Assembly (NCBI GenBank): GCA_001567115.1
Contig: LMZT01000085.1
Span: forward strand, 1 to 46,698
From: Candidatus Hinthialibacteria bacterium OLB16
GTDB lineage: Bacteria; Hinthialibacterota; Hinthialibacteria; OLB16
Length of the DNA: 46,698 nucleotides
Direction of reading: 5' to 3'
Made by a program: the position numbers and the translations under genes. Position 1 is the stretch's first letter. Every line of letters begins with the position of its first letter. Positions 33,650-45,764 of this stretch are shown in pieces. Below the pieces are notes generated by a model. That model saw nothing but the letters and a program-made list of their open reading frames with translations. It was not told the DNA's origin and searched no databases.

Positions 33650-34633
33650 TCACAATTCGATGCCCAGACTCTCAAGGAGCCGGTCCAGGTCATCCTGATT
33701 AAAAAAATGGACCTCGATGGTCCCGGAATCATCCTTTTTATGGTGAACGGATACTTTGGTCCTCAATCTCTCCTGAAGGGCTTCCTGGATCGATTTCCAG
33801 TGAATATCCAATCCGGCCTGATCCTGAGGTTCTCCCTTGTTCGAAACACGAGATTTCCTGGTTGCTTCGGATACAGGGTCTCGATCTGGCTCCGGGGATC
33901 GTTGCGCAGCCTTTTTGTCTTCGAGGAATCGCTCGAGATCCCGCACCGAGGCTTTGTTCTGGATCGAAAAACTCCAAGCCTCCAGGCACAGGTCCGGCTC
34001 GAGGCCAGCCAGAATTTTACCATGCCCCACAGAAAGAAGCCCCTCCTGGATGGAGGACTGAACCTGTTCCGGAAGGTCCAGCAGCCGCAGCAGGTTGGCC
34101 ACCACCGTACGGCTTTTTCCGACCCGGGCGGCAACCTCCTGCTGGGTCAACCCACTGGCGCCATCCACCACCCCATCCATCAGACGGCGATAGGCACGCG
34201 CCTCCTCGATGGCACTCAGGTTTTCCCTCTGAACATTCTCGACGATGGCTATTTCCAGCATCTCCTGCTCATCGGTATCTCTCACCAGGACAGGAACCAC
34301 ACTCAACCCAGCCAGCAAAGCCGCCTTGAGACGGCGCTCTCCCGCAATCAACTGGAATCGTCCGGGCGCGGGAACATCGCGCCGAACCAGCAGGGGTTCG
34401 AGAAGCCCATGCTGACGAATCGACTCCACCAGCTCCTGAAGGGCTTCCGGCTCGAACTCGGTCCGTGGCTGGTAGGGGTTCGGATCGATCCGTTCAGGGG
34501 CGATATCCAGAAGGTTTTTTGGAATGATCTCCTCTTCGGTTTCCACCTTTTTAGAATGATCCATTGAAAAAACCGAAGAAGGACGCTCCCCCAGGAGGGT
34601 TGACAGACCTCTTCCCAGCCCTTTACGCACCAT
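33650..34633 (-). CDS. parB: Chromosome partitioning protein ParB (Spo0J)
   Basis: CTP-dependent DNA clamp that loads at parS. The 327-residue protein has the N-terminal RKGLGRGLSTLLGE motif of chromosomal ParB that stimulates ParA, the CTP-binding motifs LIAGERRLKAALLAG and ENVQRENLSAIEEARAY, a helix-turn-helix (QQEVAARVGKSRTVVANLL) for parS, GLLSVGHGKIL, and a C-terminal dimerisation domain. Its start overlaps the end of parA by 11 bases. A matching parS lies at 35520-35535. Length is slightly above the usual 280-300 because of a charged linker near residues 220-265. Confidence 0.94.
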   Translation of the reverse strand: MVRKGLGRGLSTLLGERPSSVFSMDHSKKVETEEEIIPKNLLDIAPERIDPNPYQPRTEFEPEALQELVESIRQHGLLEPLLVRRDVPAPGRFQLIAGERRLKAALLAGLSVVPVLVRDTDEQEMLEIAIVENVQRENLSAIEEARAYRRLMDGVVDGASGLTQQEVAARVGKSRTVVANLLRLLDLPEQVQSSIQEGLLSVGHGKILAGLEPDLCLEAWSFSIQNKASVRDLERFLEDKKAAQRSPEPDRDPVSEATRKSRVSNKGEPQDQAGLDIHWKSIQEALQERLRTKVSVHHKKDDSGTIEVHFFNQDDLDRLLESLGIEL

Positions 34634-35435
34634 TGTTGAGAATCTCCTTTGTCAGCTCCATATAGGCTTTGGCCCCCCGTGACCAGATGTCATACAGAAT
34701 GATTGGCAGGCCATGGCTGGGGGCTTCACTCAAACGGACATTGCGGGGAATGGTTGTCTTGAAAACTTTATCGCCATAATGCCTGCGCAGCTCGTTTTCC
34801 ACCTCCACAGACAGGTTTGTCCGTGAATCCACCATTGTCAGAAGAAGCCCAAGCAGCTGCAGGTTCTGGTTCGTGTTCTGGCGTGCAAATTCAAAGGACT
34901 CCAGGATGTCGGTCAGCCCCTCGAGCGCGAAATACTCCGCCTGAACAGGCACCAGCAGGTGTGTGGCCGATGACAGGGCATTCAGAGTGATGAGATTTAA
35001 TGCCGGCGGACAGTCCAGGAAAACAAAGTCATATTTCTTTTCATTGTGCGACAATCCCTCCAGAATCCTTCGAACACAATGGGCTGGATCCGGCATCTCG
35101 CTGAGCAGTTTTTCCCCCCCTACCAGGTCCGGGCAGCCGGTCAGGATTTCGAGGCGTGGAATGGTGGGGTGTGGCAGTGGCTGGGGGTGCGCTGCTGGAT
35201 CCAGAAGCAGATCGAGCAGGCTCGGCTCCTCCTGAGATTCGCAGGCAATACCGCTGGTGGCATTGCACTGCGGATCCAGGTCGATGATCAGCGTCAGTTT
35301 TTCGGAGGCAGCCAGGCAGGCGGCAAGATTGATGACAGTGGTGGTTTTGCCAACCCCCCCCTTCTGGTTGGCAACCGCAACAATAACAGGCCCATTCCGG
35401 ACCTCCCCCTCGAGATGCGCCTCTGACACAATCAT
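34623..35435 (-). CDS. parA: Chromosome partitioning ATPase ParA (Soj)
   Basis: Walker-type ATPase that positions ParB-parS complexes on the nucleoid. Motifs: deviant Walker A in VANQKGGVGKTTTVINLA, switch I region with IDLDPQCNATSG, Walker B FVFLDCPPALNLITLNAL, and PVQAEYFALEGL of the Soj family. The 270-residue length is that of small chromosomal ParA without an N-terminal helix-turn-helix. A GGAGGA lies directly before ATG 35435, so GTG 35429 is an alternative start. It begins 29 bases after the motE/flbB-like stop and overlaps parB by 11 bases. This is Soj, not the flagellar-number ATPase FlhG, judged from the ParB partner and parS. Confidence 0.94.
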   Translation of the reverse strand: MIVSEAHLEGEVRNGPVIVAVANQKGGVGKTTTVINLAACLAASEKLTLIIDLDPQCNATSGIACESQEEPSLLDLLLDPAAHPQPLPHPTIPRLEILTGCPDLVGGEKLLSEMPDPAHCVRRILEGLSHNEKKYDFVFLDCPPALNLITLNALSSATHLLVPVQAEYFALEGLTDILESFEFARQNTNQNLQLLGLLLTMVDSRTNLSVEVENELRRHYGDKVFKTTIPRNVRLSEAPSHGLPIILYDIWSRGAKAYMELTKEILNNGA

Positions 35436-35464: not shown

Positions 35465-36364
35465 TCAGGGCATCTTTTTCAAGGGTGGATTATGACAGCT
35501 CGGCAGGTTTCGGGCTGAATGTTCCACGTGGAACACTCTCAGCCCGGATTTTTGCGCGGTATTGAAAAAACGATCGTCTTCCAGCCCGGTCCGGACATTG
35601 TCGAGCCTGTTGAACAAAACCGCAGCCTTTTCCGGCGATATCTTCACCATGGCATCCAGAATTTCGCCTCGGTCCTTGTTGGAGATGCTGTTCATCACAG
35701 TGATCGCCAGCTCGATTCCTTCGAGATCCTCACCCAGTGGCAGGGGTGAGGGCAGAGTCGATTTGGGATCGGGAAAAGATACTCCCAGAAGCAGATCCGC
35801 CGCCCTTTTTGGACTCATCGCTTTGACCGAAAGGTTCAGATCTTCCAGTCTTTTTTTCTTTTCGGTGCTCATCTCCGCTTTTCGCCTGGCTTCGATGTCC
35901 TTGAGCTGATCGAGTTCCACACTGATTCGTTTTTGAAGATTATTCAGCCGGTTGATCTCTCTTTTGAGATCCTCCTGCGCCACCTGAATGGAATTTTCCC
36001 GTGCATCGAGGGCCTCTTCTTTCTTCTTCAGGGCATCTTCTTTCTGGAGGATTCTCTGCATGGTATTCTTGAAGCCATCTTCTTCCCCCTGATCCATTTC
36101 TGTTTCGGGATGCAAAACCGCTCTTTCGAGTTCCTTCTGGTCCCGTTTTTCCCGATTCAGGCGTTGCTGGTGTTCGTATGTGGCAAGCTCCTGTTTGACC
36201 TTCTTATCTGCCATTTGCTCAAATGGGTATTTGAGGAAATCAACACCGATCTCCCCTTTTTTCAGCCAGTTGTTCCAGACCAGAAAGCAGCTCACTCCCA
36301 GTGCCAGACAGAGGATCATCAGGATTCCAGAAAGGAGGATTCCCCCGTGCTCCTTCTGCCGCAC
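35465..36364 (-). CDS. MotE/FlbB-like flagellar protein (MgtE-N type coiled coil)
   Basis: Begins at a possible GTG 36364 in phase with the preceding fliJ frame; no stop separates them. A membrane helix follows at about residues 9-30 (ILLSGILMILCLALGVSCFL), then a long coiled coil (about 60-190) and a C-terminal MgtE-N-like unit with SVKAMSPKRAADLLLGV and MVKISPEKAAVLFNRL. This matches MotE, the stator-associated chaperone, and spirochaete FlbB, which follows fliJ in the same gene order. The last codons are made by a parS palindrome (35520-35535). The protein would face the periplasm and act at the motor. The start is uncertain, and a natural FliJ-MotE fusion is not excluded. Confidence 0.7.
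   Translation of the reverse strand: MRQKEHGGILLSGILMILCLALGVSCFLVWNNWLKKGEIGVDFLKYPFEQMADKKVKQELATYEHQQRLNREKRDQKELERAVLHPETEMDQGEEDGFKNTMQRILQKEDALKKKEEALDARENSIQVAQEDLKREINRLNNLQKRISVELDQLKDIEARRKAEMSTEKKKRLEDLNLSVKAMSPKRAADLLLGVSFPDPKSTLPSPLPLGEDLEGIELAITVMNSISNKDRGEILDAMVKISPEKAAVLFNRLDNVRTGLEDDRFFNTAQKSGLRVFHVEHSARNLPSCHNPPLKKMP
35520..35535. other. parS centromere-like site (perfect 16-base palindrome)
   Basis: TGTTCCACGTGGAACA is a perfect inverted repeat and a close match to the bacterial parS consensus TGTTTCACGTGAAACA, with the C/G variant well known from Pseudomonas parS sites. It lies 85 bases before the parA start and inside the 3' coding end of the motE/flbB-like gene. ParB from the adjacent gene is the expected ligand. 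Confidence 0.92.
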
Positions 36365-36792
36365 CTTCTGTGTGATCCCGATATCATCCATTTCTTTCTG
36401 CTCTTCGGATCGAGTTTCATAGGCCCAGCGTTCCTGGTCCCGCCCCTTAAGCCTTTCCATGGTTTTTTTCTCGCGGGAACGTTCGACGAGGACCAGTCTT
36501 TTCTGCCGGAGTTCCTCGGTTCTTTCGATCAGTTCCTTTTCAGCCAGAAAGGACTCCTGGTTGAGTCGTACCAGGTAACGGTAGTGCTCATGGAGTGCCT
36601 GTCCGAGAACCTGGTTCCCCTGACCCGGATCCATTTCTTCGCGGATCTGGAAGGCCTCGACTCGCAGAGCATTACGGAAATCAGCGAGCGCTGGACCTCC
36701 TGCTCCTTTCTCAGGGTGTCGATCCGCTGGAGCTTTTCCTGGTGCTCCTTGAGCTTGAGAAGCTTTTGCATTCTAAACTGATATCTTCTCAT
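36365..36792 (-). CDS. fliJ: Flagellar export chaperone FliJ (apparent frameshift, open into motE)
   Basis: ATG 36792 overlaps the fliI stop as ATGA. The first 36 codons (MRRYQFRMQKLLKLKEHQEK) are a typical FliJ N-terminus, then the frame breaks near 36683-36689. Adding one base there joins it to ADFRNALRVEAFQIREE and the long coiled-coil frame LVRLNQESFLAEKELIERTE, reaching the normal FliJ length of about 143 residues at the KEMDDIGITQK end. No stop codon occurs there: the frame runs straight into the MotE/FlbB-like membrane helix. The end given is therefore a boundary inferred from family length. FliJ is the export-gate coiled coil that works with FliI and FliH in the cytoplasm. Confidence 0.78.
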
Positions 36793-38141
36793 TTCTTCGC
36801 CTCGACCGAATTGTTCGCCAGGTTGTTCAGCTGTTGTTTCGTCAGGTCAAATTCGGATTTTTTTTCCGGTTCCTGCCTCAAAAAAGCATCTGTTTCAGGC
36901 TTTTTATCGATCGCGAGATCGACATCCGGGTTTGTTCCTTTCCGGTAAGCACCCAGATTGATCATATCTTCCATTTCCTCATAGGTGGCCATACGGTTCC
37001 TGACAATGGCAGCCGCTGCGCGATGCCTCGGATCGACAATGTCATTCATGACACGTGAAATGCTGCGCAGCGGATCGATGGCTGGGTAATGGTTTTTATG
37101 GGCCAGATTGCGTGTCAACACGATATGTCCATCGAGAATCCCGCGTGCGGCATCGCTGATCGGCTCATTCATGTCGTCTCCCTCCACGAGAACCGTGATC
37201 AGCCCGGTGATGCTTCCACGATGCGGGGAGGTACCACATCTTTCCAGGAATCTGGGGAGCATGTTAAACACCGAAGGCGTATACCCGCGTGAAGTCGGGG
37301 GTTCACCGATAGCCAGTCCGATCTCTCTCTGGGCCAGGGCCATACGGGTGACTGAATCCATCATAAATGCGACTTTCAATCCCTCATCCCTGAAGTACTC
37401 AGCGATGGACATGGCGGTATGTGCTGCCCGGACCCGGACCAGTGGGGGCTTATCGCTGGTGGCCACAACCACCACACTCCGCGCCAATCCTTCAGGACCT
37501 AAATCCCTCTCGATAAAATCCCGGACTTCCCTGGAGCGTTCACCCACCAGTGCCACAACAATCACTTCTGCTTCGGAATACTTCGCGATCATCCCCAGAA
37601 GGGTGCTCTTACCCACCCCGCTTCCGGCGAATATTCCCACGCGCTGGCCTTCCCCAAGTGTCAGCAGGCCATCGATGGCCCTCACCCCGGTGGGAAGGAT
37701 CTCCTCGACTCGTCGCCGAGCCATGGAGTCGGTCGGCTCACGATGAATCGGAACTCTTTTTTCATAAAGCAGAGGGCCTTGGCCATCCATCGGTGCTCCA
37801 AGTCCATCCAGCACTCTTCCCAGTAGGTTTTTTCCGGTGGGAACCTGGGCTTCGAGGCCGAGGGAAACGACCTCATCTCCGGGTGAAATCCCCGCCAGCA
37901 CACCCAGTGGCATCAGGAGTGTCTTACCCTTTCGGAACCCGACAATCTCAGCACGAACCGGTTCTCTGAGGCGCGAAGATTGGATCTTGCAGACATCTCC
38001 AATACTTCCCGCCGGTCCGGCGGATTCGATCACCAGGCCGATAATTTCCTCGACTCTTCCAATCTGCAGGATCGGATCGACCTCACTGGTGCGAGTCCTG
38101 TACAGGTCCCAGTCGAGAGATGGTGCTTCGATCGGCTTCAT
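36789..38141 (-). CDS. fliI: Flagellum-specific ATP synthase FliI
   Basis: ATPase of the flagellar type III export apparatus, homologous to F1-beta. The 450-residue protein has the Walker A GSGVGKSTLLG, the VALVGERSREVRDF motif, the Walker B VAFMMDSVTRMALAQRE, PTSRGYTPSVFNMLPRFLERCG and ISDAARGILDGHIVLTR, all FliI-type. The C-terminus ends in a charged tail (PEKKSEFDLTKQQLNN). It overlaps fliH by four bases upstream and fliJ as ATGA downstream. Confidence 0.96.
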   Translation of the reverse strand: MKPIEAPSLDWDLYRTRTSEVDPILQIGRVEEIIGLVIESAGPAGSIGDVCKIQSSRLREPVRAEIVGFRKGKTLLMPLGVLAGISPGDEVVSLGLEAQVPTGKNLLGRVLDGLGAPMDGQGPLLYEKRVPIHREPTDSMARRRVEEILPTGVRAIDGLLTLGEGQRVGIFAGSGVGKSTLLGMIAKYSEAEVIVVALVGERSREVRDFIERDLGPEGLARSVVVVATSDKPPLVRVRAAHTAMSIAEYFRDEGLKVAFMMDSVTRMALAQREIGLAIGEPPTSRGYTPSVFNMLPRFLERCGTSPHRGSITGLITVLVEGDDMNEPISDAARGILDGHIVLTRNLAHKNHYPAIDPLRSISRVMNDIVDPRHRAAAAIVRNRMATYEEMEDMINLGAYRKGTNPDVDLAIDKKPETDAFLRQEPEKKSEFDLTKQQLNNLANNSVEAKK

Positions 38142-38893
38142 GGCCCTGGATCGCTTTCTTCTTTTTGCGGCAGCACCGCTCTCATGATTTCGTCCACCTG
38201 AGTCCGAATCCTTGCATCGATAATGCCGGAGGGTGTTTCGATGCGGACTCCACCCCGGTCGACACGCCTGTCAACCTCCAGCTGAACAGTTTTGATGTCA
38301 TCGAATTTATGGATGAGGTCGAGCTTGTGAATTTCCAGAATCTTCAGGTCATCCGGATGAACATGCAGTGTCACCTGCTGGCGCTCTCTGGCTCGCTTCA
38401 ATGCTTCCTCAACAGTGCGCAGGACCAGCTCCCGGTCCTCATCCTGGACTCTATGAATCAACCGCCGCGCCACCTGCAGAGCCAGATCGATCAGATCGTC
38501 CCTGTTGTCTTCCAGCATCTTTGACAATGCGAGCTGTGTGCTTTCGATGACCTTTCCAAAATCCTCAAAGGCCTGTTCGACCATGGGACGATAGTTCGAA
38601 TCGATTTCATTCTTTTCGTCGATCAATGCCTGTTCGCGTGTCTGCCGGAAGATTTCCTCCCTGCTGGCTTCCGCTTCCTGCTGGATGCGCCTGGCTTCTT
38701 CAAGCGCCTGGGTTCGTTCTTTGATTGCGGCTTGCATGGCGGCCCGTTTGATTCTCTCTGCGGCTTTCTGAGCGTCATCGATGATCCGGTCCGCGTCAGT
38801 CTCGGCATTCTGGAGAATCTGGTCGCTATACCGGATTCTAACCGGCTCCTGGGCAACTTCGACTCTAAGGACTTTGGGTTTGCCTGTCATCAT
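38138..38893 (-). CDS. fliH: Flagellar assembly protein FliH
   Basis: Negative regulator and tether of FliI at the C-ring. The 251-residue protein has a long N-terminal coiled coil rich in Glu, Arg and Ala (ADRIIDDAQKAAERIKRAAM) and a C-terminal FliH/YscL-type domain, with LIDLALQVARRLIHRVQDED and VTLHVHPDDLKIL and the ending VDRGGVRIETPSGIIDARI that resembles the E-subunit-like beta-alpha fold. ATG 38893 is followed by a second ATG. It overlaps fliI by four bases and lies 54 bases after fliG. Confidence 0.92.
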   Translation of the reverse strand: MMTGKPKVLRVEVAQEPVRIRYSDQILQNAETDADRIIDDAQKAAERIKRAAMQAAIKERTQALEEARRIQQEAEASREEIFRQTREQALIDEKNEIDSNYRPMVEQAFEDFGKVIESTQLALSKMLEDNRDDLIDLALQVARRLIHRVQDEDRELVLRTVEEALKRARERQQVTLHVHPDDLKILEIHKLDLIHKFDDIKTVQLEVDRRVDRGGVRIETPSGIIDARIRTQVDEIMRAVLPQKEESDPGP

Positions 38894-38947: not shown

Positions 38948-39973
38948 TCAGGTGATAAGGTCTTCTTCGGACCGTGTGATCGTAATTTCACCTGCCTCTT
39001 CGAGGCGCCGAATAACCGAAACGAATCTCTGCTGAGCTTCTTCCACCTGGCGCACACGCACCGGTCCCATGAACTCCATATCTTCCTTGACGATCTCTGC
39101 CGCCCTCTGGGACATATTGCTGAAGATTTTCTGTTTGACGTCATCGGAAGAGCCTTTGAGGACGACTGCGAGTTCTCTCTGATCGACTTCCTTGAGTACC
39201 TGCTGAATGGAGCGGTCATCCAGAAGAACCACATCTTCAAAGACAAACATCTTTTTCTTGATCGAATCGGCCAGCTCTGCATTTTCCGCCTCGAGGGTTT
39301 CCATGATCGAACGTTCCGTTGTCCGATCGACCCTGTTAAGCAGCTCTGCAAGCGCTTCGACACCACCGACAGTAGTAAACTCCTGTGAGAGGACAGTGGC
39401 GATTTTTCTTTCGAGAACTCTTTCAACCTCACGGGTTATTTCTGGCGCTGTCTGGTCCATGGTGGCAATCCGCAAGGCGACCTCCGCCTGCTGTTCCGGA
39501 GGCAGTGCGCTGATAACCGGGGCAGCCTGTTCAGGTGACAGGTGCGAGAGGATCAAAGCGATGGTCTGAGGGTGCTCTCCCTGGATGAAGTTGAGCAGGT
39601 GTTCCGGTTCGACCCTTTTCACAAAATCGAATGGTGTGACCTGCAGAACTCCCTGGAGCCGTGCAATGATTTCCAGAGCCTTTTTCGGGCCGACAGCCTT
39701 TTCAAGAATGTCTCTTGCTTTCTGGATGCCACCCTGGCCAAGGACCTGCTGAGCCATGGCGGTATGGTAAAACTCCTCGAGCACCAGGTTGATGGTATCG
39801 GCACTCATGCTTCCAAGCGCGGCAATTTCGACTGTCACCTGTTCGATTTCAGCATCGGTTAGATTCCGGTAGATATCGGCTGCTATCTCGGGGCCAAGCG
39901 CCACGAGCAGAATCGCCGCTTTCTTTCTTCCGGTCAGGTCGGTTCCATTTTCAGCCTTGCTTCTGCGTACCAT
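38948..39973 (-). CDS. fliG: Flagellar motor switch protein FliG
   Basis: C-ring protein that carries motor torque and joins the MS ring to FliM. The 341-residue protein has LTGRKKAAILLVALG at the N-terminus for FliF binding, the middle-domain EHPQTIALILSHL (EHPQR-type motif), and the C-terminal charged torque helix with LDDRSIQQVLKEVDQRELAVVLKG and MSQRAAEIVKEDMEFMGPVRVRQVEEAQ, including the conserved Arg and Asp/Glu positions. The length is normal. It starts seven bases after the fliF stop. Confidence 0.97.
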   Translation of the reverse strand: MVRRSKAENGTDLTGRKKAAILLVALGPEIAADIYRNLTDAEIEQVTVEIAALGSMSADTINLVLEEFYHTAMAQQVLGQGGIQKARDILEKAVGPKKALEIIARLQGVLQVTPFDFVKRVEPEHLLNFIQGEHPQTIALILSHLSPEQAAPVISALPPEQQAEVALRIATMDQTAPEITREVERVLERKIATVLSQEFTTVGGVEALAELLNRVDRTTERSIMETLEAENAELADSIKKKMFVFEDVVLLDDRSIQQVLKEVDQRELAVVLKGSSDDVKQKIFSNMSQRAAEIVKEDMEFMGPVRVRQVEEAQQRFVSVIRRLEEAGEITITRSEEDLIT

Positions 39974-39979
39974 GTCAGT

Positions 39980-41593
39980 TTACTCCGCCAGCCAGTTTCT
40001 CAGGATGCCGACAAAATCTTCAGGTTTGCCTTTGGCATAATTTTCGATCTCTTCCCGTATAATTCTGCTCTTCTGTTCTTCCGGGGGTAAGTTCTCGAGA
40101 TCGCCGATGGACCGCAGCCCGAATTCACGCTGCGAAGGCTCTGGGATTCTCGGCCCAGGAAGTGAAATCTCCTCGGAGCGAACCAGTTCCTCTTCGGCCG
40201 GTTTGATGGAGAAAACCTTGCGCAGGAAATAGAAGAATACAAGAATCGAAATCAAAGCAGCTGCCAGAAATGCCGCGCTTTCCACATTGGTCCGGATGGT
40301 TTCCCAGCGGGCCTCAGTTTCTGCCAGGATCTCTCCGGAACGGTCAAACGGCACCTGGTTGAGCACGAAGTGATGGCGGGTGCTGTTTTCGATGTGGGCT
40401 GCCGCCAGCTTGAGAGACTTCTCCAGCTCCGCCATCTGTTCCGGTGTGCGCTGGACATACTTTTTTTCGCCATTTTCAATCGTCGGAACATAATTGACAG
40501 CGATTGAGATCCACTGTGTTTCGAGCTCTCCCGGGGCGACCTCGGTGCTGGTTTCCCGGACCAGGCGCGGCTCATTATCCACCTCCTGGGTTTCCTGGGT
40601 CATGCTGGAGTTGCTGGCGTGGCTGCTACTGTCCGGTCCGATATTGTCATCGGGATTATTCGAAGGGGTCCCCGGGATTCCACCCGGCTGGTTGGTTTTA
40701 TCTTCAATCTCTTCTGTCCGGCGCCTCTTCTCGAAGGGGTTTTCCGCATCGATGTATTTTTCTTTGATCGCTTTTTTATCGAAATTCAATTTGACATCGG
40801 CGGCGATGGTATAATTGGCGCCGCCACCGACGATCGGATCGAGGATATTCGCGCAGGCCTTGATGCGGCGCTCGCGGAGCAGCTCTTCGGATTTGCGCTG
40901 CTCGTCAGTGAGCAACTCGGTTTCAGATTTCTCACGATACCCGGACAGCACCCGGCTGTTTTCGTCAGTGACAATGACATCAGCCGGTTTAAGCCCGGGC
41001 AGGGCATTGGCGACAGTCCATTGAATTCCCTGGACCGATTCCTTTGGGAGGGTCTGGCCCCGGGTGCCGACTTTGACCGATGCGGTGGGTTTCGTGTCTC
41101 CACTCGGGAACAGGCCTTTTTCTCTTTCGGTCAGCTGAACACGCGCCCAGTCAATCAGGTCGGATCCTTTTTCGACAGTCGATTCGAGTTCTTCCTGGAG
41201 TGCACGCAGGCGGGTTTCGCGGAACTGGGCGCTGGTCTGGCTCCAGTTATATTCTTTGAGGATCCCATACCCCCCCAGGGGTTTCTGGCGATTGCTGATG
41301 GCAAATTCCGCACGCAGCTTGTCACGGTCCCCAAAGACATAGACCGCTCCATCGCGGATGTTGTAGCGTGCGCCTTTCTCGTCGAGAAACCGGCTGAGCT
41401 CCCCAACCTCGGCGTCATCGAGGCCGCCATAAAGGAAATCCCCGCCCGGCAGGAAATAGGCTGCCAAAGATATTCCCAGCAGCCCCAGCAGGAGGGCGCT
41501 TGTCAGGCCTCCGACAAGCCATTTTTGGCCTGCGGTCAGCTGGGACCAGAGTCTCTTGATATCTTCCTGGAGACGAATTAACCAGTCTGGCAT
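39980..41593 (-). CDS. fliF: Flagellar MS-ring protein FliF (full length)
   Basis: The 537-residue protein has two membrane helices (about residues 24-48 and 445-465) with a large periplasmic part between. Ring-building domain 1 begins LYGGLDDAEVGELSRFLDEKG, domain 2 has IDWARVQLTEREKGLF and IQWTVANALPGLKPADVIV, domain 3 has ILDPIVGGGANYTIAADVKL. A low-complexity loop (about 330-370) fits the beta-collar insertion. The C-terminal cytoplasmic tail ends EDFVGILRNWLAE, the FliG-binding segment. It therefore can build a complete MS ring. Upstream lie two short FliF-like genes, and fliG follows after seven bases. Confidence 0.95.
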   Translation of the reverse strand: MPDWLIRLQEDIKRLWSQLTAGQKWLVGGLTSALLLGLLGISLAAYFLPGGDFLYGGLDDAEVGELSRFLDEKGARYNIRDGAVYVFGDRDKLRAEFAISNRQKPLGGYGILKEYNWSQTSAQFRETRLRALQEELESTVEKGSDLIDWARVQLTEREKGLFPSGDTKPTASVKVGTRGQTLPKESVQGIQWTVANALPGLKPADVIVTDENSRVLSGYREKSETELLTDEQRKSEELLRERRIKACANILDPIVGGGANYTIAADVKLNFDKKAIKEKYIDAENPFEKRRRTEEIEDKTNQPGGIPGTPSNNPDDNIGPDSSSHASNSSMTQETQEVDNEPRLVRETSTEVAPGELETQWISIAVNYVPTIENGEKKYVQRTPEQMAELEKSLKLAAAHIENSTRHHFVLNQVPFDRSGEILAETEARWETIRTNVESAAFLAAALISILVFFYFLRKVFSIKPAEEELVRSEEISLPGPRIPEPSQREFGLRSIGDLENLPPEEQKSRIIREEIENYAKGKPEDFVGILRNWLAE

Positions 41594-41684
41594 CTTCTAC
41601 CATCCCATTGTCTGGATTCGCTCCAAGACCAACATGCACAATTCAGGCCACCAATCCCATTGTGGACTGGTAAATTTGTTTGTT

Positions 41685-42356
41685 TCAATTTTCCAGCGGT
41701 GATGAACGAGTCAACTCCCGGCCATCTTCATTCAGCACCAGGACATCCGAGGGTTTCAAGCCGGCAAACGAATTTGCCACCACCCACTGGATCCGCTCGA
41801 CATCGATATCCGGCAGCACCGCTCCACCAGTCCCGACAATCACTGCCGCACCTTTCTTCCCTTCCCCACCCTCCAAAGCAAACCGGTCTCTTTGGCGGAA
41901 TCCAACCCGTGCCCACTCGATATGATCACACCCCTTCGACAGAAGCTTCTCGAGTTCCTTCCGAATCGCATTCAGTCGATGTGGATCGGGATTTGACGAG
42001 CCGGTCAGTTCAACAACTTTTTTTGTCTGCTGGCTATAAAGGTTCTGGCGGTGTTCCTGCCATTCCTGGAACTCTTTCCGAACCTCATCGGCTTCGCCCC
42101 GGATGCTGATAACAGTTCCTTCATCGGTCAGCCGATAATTCATCCCTTTTGATTTGAGGAAATCGACCACATCCGCCATTTTGTCTGAATCCAACCTGTC
42201 GAACAGGACCTTTTCGCCTCTGGCATGGATAACCGCCACCAGCACCAGCTGAATCGACAGCAGCAGGCCGATTGCAGCAACCCCTTTCAAAAAAAGGCCA
42301 GGCGTTCCCTTCTCTGGCATCTTCTTCCCGATCCATTTAATGGCAGCTGAAAACAC
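41685..42356 (-). CDS. Short FliF paralogue with one membrane helix and two ring domains
   Basis: The 223-residue protein starts with a basic segment and a membrane helix (about residues 21-45). Residues 49-86 match ring-building domain 1 (VLFDRLDSDKMADVVDFLKSKG). Residues 146-215 match domain 2: IEWARVGFRQRDRFAL, AAVIVGTGG and IQWVVANSFAGLKPSDVLV, parallel to the same segment of the neighbouring FliF. It ends there, with no domain 3, collar, second membrane helix or FliG-binding tail. The stop is clean and 91 bases precede fliF, so it is not a simple 5' fragment of fliF. It may be an extra MS-ring component or a modulator; function is unknown. Confidence 0.75.
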   Translation of the reverse strand: MFSAAIKWIGKKMPEKGTPGLFLKGVAAIGLLLSIQLVLVAVIHARGEKVLFDRLDSDKMADVVDFLKSKGMNYRLTDEGTVISIRGEADEVRKEFQEWQEHRQNLYSQQTKKVVELTGSSNPDPHRLNAIRKELEKLLSKGCDHIEWARVGFRQRDRFALEGGEGKKGAAVIVGTGGAVLPDIDVERIQWVVANSFAGLKPSDVLVLNEDGRELTRSSPLEN

Positions 42357-42408
42357 GGGTCATTCCCCCAATCCAATCAAACTCACAAGCCCTTACCGGT
42401 ATGACGTT

Positions 42409-43008
42409 TCATGGTTCGATTTGTTCACTCCTCAGTGCGACCTGGTTTTCATGCTTTGTTTCATTCTGATACCCTCGCCAGGGCCGCCAGCTCGTTCCGA
42501 TGATCGAGACATTCCCGATAGGCAGTCCAGGAACTACACGGGCAACCATCTCACGTGCTTCCTGGATATCCTCTTTCGACAATCCACGTGCGAGGATAAA
42601 TGCGATCGGTTCAGCATCCTCCATCTTTCCCGGAAAATAACTCGGCAGTGAAACACAAACCCTTGGTTCGACAACCGCAGGCCAGCGCTGCCGAAACTTC
42701 TTCTCCAGTTCCCTTTCCCAGAGGCCTCTCTGTGCCAGGAGGCGGAGCTCATCAAAGGTTTTGGCTTTTTCGAGGATCGCTATCGGATCTTCTTTGACAT
42801 AGAACGTGCGTTTCTGTTCATCGAAACGATAAGTGACCTGGGTTTTTTTCAGAAAGTCGAAAAGTGTTGGCTGCAGTTCTTCCGGGACACCGACAATCAG
42901 GACTTTCTCCTCTTCGGGAACCCAGGCATCCAGTGTGTAGGACTTCTGAGCACACAGAGTCAAGAACAGCACCACCAGAACCAGACCGGCATGGAAACGA
43001 AACGCCAT
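42409..43008 (-). CDS. Second short FliF/SctJ-like protein with signal sequence
   Basis: The 199-residue protein has an AAGGGGAG ribosome-binding site, an N-terminal hydrophobic segment (about residues 7-20) ending LTLCAQKS, possibly a degenerate lipobox with C19, and no other membrane helix. Residues 36-72 resemble ring-building domain 1 (VLIVGVPEELQPTLFDFLKK). Residues 113-173 resemble domain 2: PRVCVSLPSYF, then IQEAREMVARVVPGLPIGNV and VSIIGTSW, as in FliF and the SctJ/PrgK lipoproteins of type III secretion. It is more diverged than the next gene. Its place between fliE and fliF supports a basal-body role; the exact role is unknown. Confidence 0.65.
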   Translation of the reverse strand: MAFRFHAGLVLVVLFLTLCAQKSYTLDAWVPEEEKVLIVGVPEELQPTLFDFLKKTQVTYRFDEQKRTFYVKEDPIAILEKAKTFDELRLLAQRGLWERELEKKFRQRWPAVVEPRVCVSLPSYFPGKMEDAEPIAFILARGLSKEDIQEAREMVARVVPGLPIGNVSIIGTSWRPWRGYQNETKHENQVALRSEQIEP

Positions 43009-43277: not shown

Positions 43278-43588
43278 TCAGACCTGAAGACGAGAAATTT
43301 CCTGGTAGGCTTCAACTATTTTGTTGCGGATCTGCAATGTAAACTGAAAAGCCAGGTTTGCATCTTCGACCGCCACCATGACATCCTTCAGGTCGGTGAC
43401 TTCGCCGGTCGCAAACTTGCTGATCTTTTCCTCAGCGACTGATTGCAGATTGTTGACTTCCCCCAGTGACTTCTCGAGCAGGTCCCGAAATGAAGCTGAA
43501 CCCGTTGACTCCGGGGCCCTAACCCCTTTGTCAATAGGTTATCCGTACCTCTTGTTGCAACAGGATTTACTGAGATCGGATTAACCAT
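43278..43588 (-). CDS. fliE: Flagellar hook-basal body protein FliE (apparent frameshift)
   Basis: FliE links the MS ring to the proximal rod. From ATG 43588 the frame reads MVNPISVNPVATRGTDNLLT and then breaks at the CCCC run 43523-43526 (plus strand). Adding one base gives TKGVRAPESTGSASFRDLLE and continues as VNNLQSVAEEKISKFATGEV and FQFTLQIRNKIVEAYQEISR, the diagnostic FliE C-terminus, ending at TGA 43278-43280. The rebuilt protein has 103 residues, the normal size. Because fliE is essential for flagella in known systems, a base-calling error is more likely than a real disruption. About 270 bases without a recognised gene separate it from the next gene. Confidence 0.87.
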
Positions 43589-43654: not shown

Positions 43655-44101
43655 TTAGGCGCTTCGACCAATTTCCAGAATCTTGGCTGCGATCTGTTTG
43701 GTGGTGTTCATGGCGGTCACATTGGCTTCATAAGCCCGCGAGGCATCGATCAGGTTCACCATCTCATCCACCACCCGGATATTCGGTTTCCGGACAACCC
43801 CATTCGGGCCGGCATCCGGATGAGAGGGCTCATACACATCCATAAAAGCTTCAACCCCGGAGGCTTCCACTATTTTCGACACCCGAACCCCTGCTCCGAT
43901 GATTTTTTCCTCCTGGGCCTCATCCAGCATCTTAGCGAAATGGGCTTTGGATCCGCCAACCGATTCAAAAACCACCGCACGGCGACGATATGGGCCTCCC
44001 TCTTCCGTCCGGGTGGTCTGGGCATTGGCAATATTGTTGGCTATCACATTCATCCGGATTCTCTGGGCTTCCAGCCCGGATGCCGAAACATCAAAAATCA
44101 T
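43655..44101 (-). CDS. flgC: Flagellar proximal rod protein FlgC
   Basis: The 148-residue rod protein has the N-terminal motif IFDVSASGLEAQRIRMNVIA followed by NNIANAQTTRT, and the C-terminal VDEMVNLIDASRAYEANVTA, both typical of FlgC. The central part contains the PYRRRAVVFE segment of the family. Exported by the flagellar type III system, so no signal peptide. It lies 12 bases after flgB and 66 bases before fliE. Confidence 0.96.
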   Translation of the reverse strand: MIFDVSASGLEAQRIRMNVIANNIANAQTTRTEEGGPYRRRAVVFESVGGSKAHFAKMLDEAQEEKIIGAGVRVSKIVEASGVEAFMDVYEPSHPDAGPNGVVRKPNIRVVDEMVNLIDASRAYEANVTAMNTTKQIAAKILEIGRSA

Positions 44102-44113
44102 GATTCCCTCCTA

Positions 44114-44530
44114 TCACCTTCCCAGAACAGCCGTTTTCAGGTCACGGTAGTTCCGGATCAGCAGTTCGGTCAGCGCGTTCATCCTGCCGCCATTTTTCGC
44201 CAGCTCGGCCATCTCACGATCGATGCTCACATTGCTGCCATCGGCTCGGACCGGAGTCGAAAAATCGGTTCTGGCAGTGGGGGACAGATGCTTCAATGTT
44301 TCGAAAAGAGAGCTGGATTCAACCCCATCCCCGGAAACTATCCCTTCTGCAGAAGATGCTTTCAGTGCGCTTTTCAGGCGTTCCTCGAAACGAATCTCCA
44401 CACGCTGATAACCTGGGGTGTCGACATTGGCGATATTGTTGACAATTGCACGGTGCCTGGCGGAATACCCATCCAGCGCGGACTGAATGACCAGATTGAC
44501 TTTGTTGCGATCGAAAAGTGGATTGATCAT
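44114..44530 (-). CDS. flgB: Flagellar proximal rod protein FlgB
   Basis: The 138-residue rod protein has ALDGYSARHRAIVNNIANVD with TPGYQR, the FlgB signature, and the C-terminal MNALTELLIRNYRDLKTA. I chose ATG 44530 because GGAG lies seven bases upstream; the open frame extends to 44557. It is the first gene of the flagellar run. Upstream (about 44582-44594) a small inverted repeat GGAAT-GTG-ATTCC lies near AT-rich sequence that may hold the operon promoter, but I cannot define -35/-10, sigma-28 or sigma-54 elements with confidence. Confidence 0.95.
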   Translation of the reverse strand: MINPLFDRNKVNLVIQSALDGYSARHRAIVNNIANVDTPGYQRVEIRFEERLKSALKASSAEGIVSGDGVESSSLFETLKHLSPTARTDFSTPVRADGSNVSIDREMAELAKNGGRMNALTELLIRNYRDLKTAVLGR

Positions 44531-44680
44531 TGTTTTCTCCAATTCATGTCCAAGCATCTTTTATACCACTTCTATTTTACCGGAATGTGATTCCTGTAAG
44601 TTCTTTATGTTAAGGATGTTGCATGACATTTAACCAATGGGGATTCTGTATGAAACACATGGAAAAAAATGCCGATGGTT

Positions 44681-44725: not shown

Positions 44726-44782
44726 GGTTCTCTGATAGTCTTTCAAGGCTTGAATCAGATGACCGGTTTCAAGGAGTTGTTC

Positions 44783-45764
44783 ATGTCCAGCACACCTTCC
44801 AGCTTCGCTTTGGGGATCGATATCGGCGGAACCAAAATCTACACCGTAGTGGTTGATGAGGACTACAATATCCTCGGCCGTGGAAAGAAAAAAACCGGGG
44901 ATGGAAGCCCCGGGCAATTGATGCAACGCCTGTATGTTTCGATTGATGAAGCCATTCAGAATGCAGGAGTTACCTTCGATCAGATCCACACAGCCGGTGT
45001 TGGTTTTCCCGGTCCGCTTGACCCGGACAAGGGAATCATTCTTCAGGCCACCAATCTCCCCGCCTGGAGTCATTTCCCGCTTGCCGATGAAATTTCCACC
45101 CACATCAATGCTCCGGTCTTCATCGACAACGATGTCAATCTCGGGACCTATGGCGAGGCCATGCTGGGAGCCGGGGCAGGGGCGAAGAATGTCATTGGTA
45201 TTTTCCTCGGTACCGGGGTGGGTGGGGGAATCATCATCGATGGAAAAATTTACCATGGAACCGCAGGAACCGCGGGTGAGGTCGGTCATGTCATCATCCA
45301 GCATGGCGGCATTCCCGGCCCATTCGGCCTGAAAGGCTCTGTCGAGGGGCTTACCAGCCGCAATGCCATCATCCGGTCGATTCGAAACGATATTAAAAAA
45401 AGGAAAAAAGTGTTCTCTCGAAGTTTTATTCAAGAGTGGAAAAAAAATCGGGAGCTCCCAACTCGCTGCAGCTTACCGTGATGGGGATTCTGTGGTCATA
45501 AAAGCCTTTCATCATGCCGCAGAACTGGTAGGTGTGACGATGGGATCATTGATTAACCTTCTTGCACCGGATGTCGTGATTCTTGGGGGTGGAGTGATTT
45601 CAGCTGTTCCTGAGGCGGTCGTTCCAATCGCCAAAAAGGTTGCCATGCGCATCATGCTTGAATCGAATCGCAAAACAAGCCGTATCGAAATTGCCGCTCT
45701 GGGGGATGATGCGGGGGCATTGGGAGCAGCCTTCTATGCCCGCCACCGCCTCAAGGGAGAATAA
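44783..45764 (+). CDS. ROK-family sugar kinase, zinc-less type (apparent frameshift)
   Basis: ATG 44783 has AAGGAG six bases upstream. The phosphate motif LGIDIGGTKIYTVVVDE, the catalytic region VFIDNDVNLGTYGEAM and NVIGIFLGTGVGGGI define a ROK kinase such as glucokinase. The usual zinc site CxCGxxGCxE after GEVGHVII is replaced by GGIPGPFGLKGSVEG, with no cysteine. The frame breaks in the run of seven A at 45395-45401; removing one gives NDIKKGKKCSLEVLFKSGKK and runs to 45764, adding LAPDVVILGGGVISAVPE and DDAGALGAAFYA, for 326 residues. Length and motifs are then normal. Probably phosphorylates a hexose in the cytoplasm; the sugar is unknown. Confidence 0.82.

Follow-up and report, generated by a model that had tools for sequence, protein, structure and literature searches.

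The flagellar locus and its two short genes

The window analysed here, a stretch of 46,698 nucleotides from Candidatus Hinthialibacteria bacterium OLB16 (contig LMZT01000085.1, positions 1 to 46,698; genome G000 of our collection), carries on its minus strand a flagellar operon in the order flgB, flgC, fliE, X, Y, fliF, fliG, fliH, fliI, fliJ, where X and Y denote two short genes, the subject of this report, placed between fliE and a complete fliF. X (42409..43008, minus strand) encodes 199 amino acids (aa) and Y (41685..42356, minus strand, with a GTG start) 223 aa; both reading frames are intact and both starts are preceded by purine-rich, ribosome-binding-like sites. The fliF gene that follows (39980..41593, minus strand) encodes a complete 537-aa protein with a first transmembrane (TM) helix (TM1), the ring-building domains RBM1 and RBM2, an RBM3/collar region, a second helix (TM2) and a C-terminal tail; its product has two hydrophobic helices and matches both the YscJ_FliF family (PF01514, E 2.4e-26) and the FliF C-terminal family PF08345. 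Directly upstream of X lies fliE (43280..43588, minus strand), and, since a scan of the minus strand from fliE to fliF revealed no terminator-like sites, X, Y and fliF plausibly share one transcript.

FliF normally builds the flagellar base ring (MS ring) alone, the ring being treated as a FliF homo-oligomer, and it is a recognized puzzle how a single chain can form rings with 34, 23 and 11 copies. A sequence-only reading of this stretch had proposed that X and Y are intact genes homologous to the RBM1-RBM2 part of FliF, and their coordinates, frames and homology were all borne out by the analysis described below. The arrangement is also wider than that reading saw, as short pieces of FliF recur elsewhere in the class and also in a lineage unrelated to it; short FliF paralogs upstream of fliF are well supported as a real and recurrent feature.

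Homology and fold of X and Y

Y is recognized readily. It scores 42.9 bits (E 6.1e-11) against PF01514, above the gathering cut-off of 24.4, shares 35% identity with the neighbouring FliF across 194 aa, and aligns with the class FliF alignment in hhalign at E 2.5e-17. Its layout comprises a TM helix (residues ~25-44) at the place of FliF TM1, followed by RBM1 (~48-90) and RBM2 (~125-210), and a structural model whose input alignment included FliF sequences reaches domain TM-scores (template-modelling scores) near 0.8 against solved FliF RBM2. From these sequence comparisons, Y is best described as a paralog of the N-terminal half of FliF.

X is more divergent. Against PF01514 it scores 20.8 bits (E 3.9e-4), under the gathering cut-off, and local alignment of its orthologs from the two family relatives (G001 and G002) to their own FliF proteins stayed at background level. 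Profile-profile comparison of the three X orthologs with the class FliF alignment, by hhalign, gave E 8e-7 and a score of 53.4, as against a maximum of 25.2 among 200 column-shuffled copies and 20.3 for the reversed profile; because this score exceeds every shuffled control, X is not a chance match. An AlphaFold (AF2) model of X alone, built from the three orthologs without any FliF sequence, has predicted local distance difference test (pLDDT) values >90 across most of both domains, and in Foldseek its top matches in the Protein Data Bank (PDB) are FliF, EscJ and PrgK (E 2e-8 to 2e-6 for FliF and EscJ). With VIA-align, the model reaches Z 11.7 to domain 2 (RBM2) of EscJ/PrgK and Z 10.2 over 115 residues to the crystal structure of FliF RBM1-RBM2. 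X is therefore confirmed as a homolog of FliF RBM1-RBM2 on the basis of profile-profile comparison and fold, not of Pfam, and the model predicts two alpha/beta ring-building domains in the order found in FliF and SctJ. When the X profile was run on 386 genomes, it yielded eight weak matches outside the X family, seven of which are frames of 505-672 aa at sites that also match the YscJ/FliF family.

The layout of X consists of a hydrophobic segment (~7-19), a conserved Ala28, RBM1 (~34-88) and RBM2 (~89-174), with no second TM helix. A lipobox cysteine had been suggested for this protein, but Cys19, in the sequence LTLC, makes a poor lipobox and is missing in G001 and placed elsewhere in G002, and X as a lipoprotein was rejected. 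Ala28, which precedes the mature domain, is kept among the orthologs; since the cysteine is not conserved while this alanine is, X is probably a cleaved, exported periplasmic protein.

Both X and Y stop after RBM2 and are devoid of RBM3, the beta-collar, TM2 and the FliG-binding tail. Among 19 positions in the shared region that are invariant in 12 class FliFs, Y keeps 13, and it has lost Leu161-Phe162 in the loop between RBM2 strands, a pair likewise absent from X; the linker between RBM1 and RBM2 is changed in Y and shortened or lost in X. In Salmonella, the RBM2 loop of FliF borders the export-gate hole, and FlhA assembly requires this loop (PMC8092281). Given the loss of the gate-lining Leu-Phe, a place for X and Y in the inner ring appears less likely.

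Distribution of short FliF-like genes

Our sample of the class comprised 14 genomes, all of which encode FliF and one FlhA-type export gate (that of G009 in two pieces on two contigs). Each of the three genomes in the window's family (G000, G001 and G002, from three genera) has X in the interval from fliE to fliF, with intact orthologs at L027:5352-5951 and L028:1970-2548, while Y was seen in G000 only. X and Y are not frame-broken copies of a fliF: X is unbroken at the same place in both relatives, and the only fliF found in two frames, that of G005 (L038:5282-6923; the frames overlap, and the break, from a sequencing error or a split gene, falls in the loop region of RBM2), has no short gene upstream.

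In other families of the class, the slot between fliE and fliF is filled differently. G003 has a 213-aa protein with TM, RBM1 and RBM2 (s213, a strong FliF match) together with an 88-aa protein combining a TM helix and a collar segment; G007 has a 203-aa copy of its own FliF spanning RBM1, partial RBM2 and collar (s203, again a strong match); G009 has a 141-aa TM+RBM1 protein (s141); and G006 a 125-aa protein with TM and collar segment. Family f5 has an 85-aa TM protein that resembles its own FliF only weakly (z 2.7-4.4) and may tentatively be called RBM1-like. A 105-aa frame in f5 was set aside as probably spurious, having no FliF similarity, no hydrophobic helix and a ratio of nonsynonymous to synonymous substitution rates (dN/dS) of about 0.7.

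Two further observations concern this slot and its surroundings. In the 88-aa (L033) and 125-aa (L034) proteins, a TM helix is combined with the collar segment of FliF in the absence of any RBM, the segment bearing the conserved motif SEKTY...PG..SNVQ, and we know of no other instance of this domain combination. Moreover, a second FliE-like gene (about 100-112 aa, recognized by eye) lies just 5' of fliE in families f2 (L029, L031, L032, L033, L034 and L036) and f5 (L030, L035 and L039); the window's family is without it.

A survey with PF01514 was positive in 175 of 386 genomes, and inspection of the 15 extra-copy genomes from outside the class revealed one more adjacent pair of short gene and fliF, in G290; the survey would miss short genes falling below its E-value, and absence elsewhere is not inferable from it. 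The order in G290 is flgB-flgC-fliE-[147-aa TM+RBM1]-fliF, the short protein scoring 30 bits against PF01514 (gathering cut-off 24.4), and it is kept in five more genomes of the same family (G403, G422, G429, G416 and G411; six in total). The short proteins of this second lineage (f220) are of the TM+RBM1 type and about 147-168 aa long.

Origin and selection

Phylogenetic trees place Y with the FliFs of the window's family (97/100), on a long branch, G003_s213 with the FliFs of G003 and G006 (94/100), and G007_s203, a recent internal-deletion copy, with its own FliF (100/99), while X stands apart from all three. The short proteins of f220 fall into a single clade (100/99), which adjoins the f220 FliF (90/86). 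A single ancestral short gene, that is, one clade of Y, s213, s203 and X, was rejected in the approximately unbiased (AU) test (p-AU 7e-5), as was a common clade of Y, s213 and s203 (p-AU 4e-5); for X with Y alone, shared ancestry is not rejected (p-AU 0.37). Exact placements are unsure given the long branches, and Y shifts next to the G004 FliF in a shorter, RBM1-only tree. Since a shared origin of the short RBM genes tested in the class is rejected by these trees, fliF has undergone partial tandem duplication, of its 5' half, on several occasions.

As to selection, neutral drift simulated from FliF to the identity of Y (35%) introduced about 6 stops on average and none of the 300 runs was stop-free, compared with no stop in Y. 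By the Nei-Gojobori method, dN/dS is about 0.24 for the f5 protein and, in f220, the two closest pairs give about 0.43 and 0.37 and wider pairs up to about 0.56, values that show purifying selection on the short copies of both families.

Neighbouring genes

The remaining genes of the operon in the window, all on the minus strand, are flgB (44114..44557) and flgC (43655..44101) on the upstream side and fliG (38948..39973), fliH (38138..38893), fliI (36789..38141) and fliJ (35465..36792) downstream of fliF. Both fliE and fliJ are split between two frames by what looks like a frameshift of a single base (in fliE near 43505-43515), and both are intact in relatives, fliE being unbroken in L027 and L028; these frameshifts are probably assembly errors, or else the operon is damaged in this genome. 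The fliE frameshift is an addition to the earlier account, which omitted it. The fliJ product is fused to a membrane helix, a coiled coil and a C-terminal portion that by eye resembles MgtE_N/MotE, and this fusion is intact in G002 as a 417-aa protein (L066:1377-2630). In the window (33650-35435, minus strand) as in G002 (L066:2730-4485), the genes next after the flagellar operon are those of ParA and ParB. Upstream of flgB, on the plus strand (44750-45764), lies a ROK sugar-kinase-like gene spread over two frames that overlap, which may reflect another frameshift.

Possible roles of X and Y

X and Y are most likely auxiliary subunits of the M-ring or assembly factors, their exact role being a matter of inference; composite ring, collar, cap or assembly regulator are all possible. 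Nothing was found in support of the stacked rings once suggested. The more specific reading that we prefer, with slightly less than even confidence, is that they serve as auxiliary M-ring subunits in a single flagellar motor. Made just upstream of fliF, and keeping only the exported first half of its product (signal or TM1, RBM1 and RBM2), they would act at the level of the M-ring. Without RBM3, beta-collar, TM2 and FliG-binding tail, they should be unable to build the S-ring or hold the C-ring, and would pack solely through RBM1 and RBM2, against the same domains of full-length FliF, more likely at sites away from the export gate. The Salmonella MS ring offers such a setting: its 34 FliF subunits have to take up two conformations, the inner ring being formed by the RBM2 of 23 subunits while the RBM1-RBM2 of the other 11 lies outside it (PMC8270960, PMC8092281). 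A protein that by nature has RBM1-RBM2 alone would lend itself to occupying or directing such non-equivalent positions. A bolder version, which we consider rather doubtful, holds that the two tasks of RBM1-RBM2 were divided, independently in several bacterial lineages, between full-length FliF and dedicated short paralogs, giving a hetero-oligomeric M-ring that would settle the 34/23 mismatch through separate gene products.

X and Y might instead be transient assembly factors, such as chaperones or limiters, whose RBM1 or RBM1-RBM2 binds the oligomerisation face of FliF RBM2; they would set the timing or number of MS rings and have no lasting place in the finished ring. In Salmonella, the RBM1-RBM2 fragment is monomeric and assembles once RBM3 rings are added, RBM1 being thought to cover the RBM2 interface and so block RBM2 oligomerisation (PMC8786727), and RBM1 is the domain common to X, Y, G003_s213, G007_s203, G009_s141 and the f220 proteins; X, moreover, looks exported and soluble, without a second anchor. 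However, preformed RBM2 rings are not dissolved by added RBM1 (PMC8786727), and two slot genes have a collar segment in place of RBM1; a transient role is held to be somewhat unlikely. Less likely still, indeed improbable, is that the short genes are functionless, drifting leftovers of repeated tandem fliF duplication. That Y is unique to G000 and on a long branch, that G007_s203 is so recent a deletion copy, and that slot contents differ between families would all fit such decay, but X is retained in three genera, Y is free of stops to an extent that no neutral run reproduced, and dN/dS in f5 and f220 lies well below 1; a decaying copy suits G007_s203 and perhaps Y, not X or the copies of f5 and f220. 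Hardly credible, finally, is the notion that X and Y are SctJ/SctD-like components of a distinct type III injectisome encoded beside the flagellar operon. Although the RBM1-RBM2 architecture and fold match EscJ/PrgK, G000 has one FlhA-family export gate and no further YscJ-family gene, X scores 13.7 against a cut-off of 161.95 bits for the SctJ family (NCBIfam TIGR02544), for which Y is not listed, there is no conserved lipobox, and Y is closest to FliF; around X and Y, the window holds flagellar neighbours only, with no linked injectisome genes.

Several points weigh against the auxiliary-subunit reading itself. No RBM was detectable in slot genes of G011 (73 aa), G007 (82 aa) and G010 (142 aa), those of G010 and G011 encoding TM proteins, for which reason the fliE-fliF slot may have no single common function. 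In the families of G004 and G005, the fliE-fliF gap is too small for any gene, so that a short gene is dispensable for a flagellum. The apparent frameshift in fliE raises possible operon decay in this genome, an assembly error being likelier. As for selection, dS for X is saturated (2.4 for G000/G002), which makes its low ratio merely indicative, and Y is without an ortholog for a selection test.

Comparison with known systems and implications

That no described flagellum is known to have such a set of genes, as the sequence-only reading put it, agrees with a literature search for second, short or paralogous FliF, which found no adjacent short FliF, most subscription journals being outside its scope. 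The closest counterpart is the N-terminal half of FliF, which X and Y resemble in sequence profile, fold, the order TM1/signal-RBM1-RBM2 and operon position; they differ from FliF in the missing RBM3/collar, TM2 and FliG-binding tail, in the lost invariant Leu-Phe of the RBM2 loop (i-loop), in the shortened (X) or changed (Y) linker, and in being encoded beside a complete FliF. SctJ (EscJ/PrgK), too, is exported, consists of RBM1-RBM2 and is close to X and Y in size and fold, but X and Y have no conserved lipobox or accompanying injectisome genes and fail the family cut-off. FlgV of Campylobacterota, compared by description only, is alike in the way it works, as an additional, small membrane protein that associates with the MS ring; it is described as having a TM region and forming a cytoplasmic ring near the MS/C-ring junction, and in Helicobacter its authors propose that it helps FliF in rings of unequal symmetry (PMC10655999), a proposal that makes helper proteins for symmetry mismatch a serious idea. 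The Chlamydia FliF variant (PMC4768692) is a FliF with missing domains, whereas X and Y sit beside a complete one.

Recurrence of short genes beside fliF in separate lineages suggests that MS-ring composition varies among bacteria, and in some flagellar motors more than one type of subunit may take part in building or regulating the ring. The same domain content as in X and Y has been produced in the laboratory as the Salmonella RBM1-RBM2 construct (PMC8786727), an engineered fragment and not a natural gene; natural short forms of FliF would amount to evolution's own domain dissection, through which the roles of RBM1 and RBM2 in assembly become testable with small proteins.
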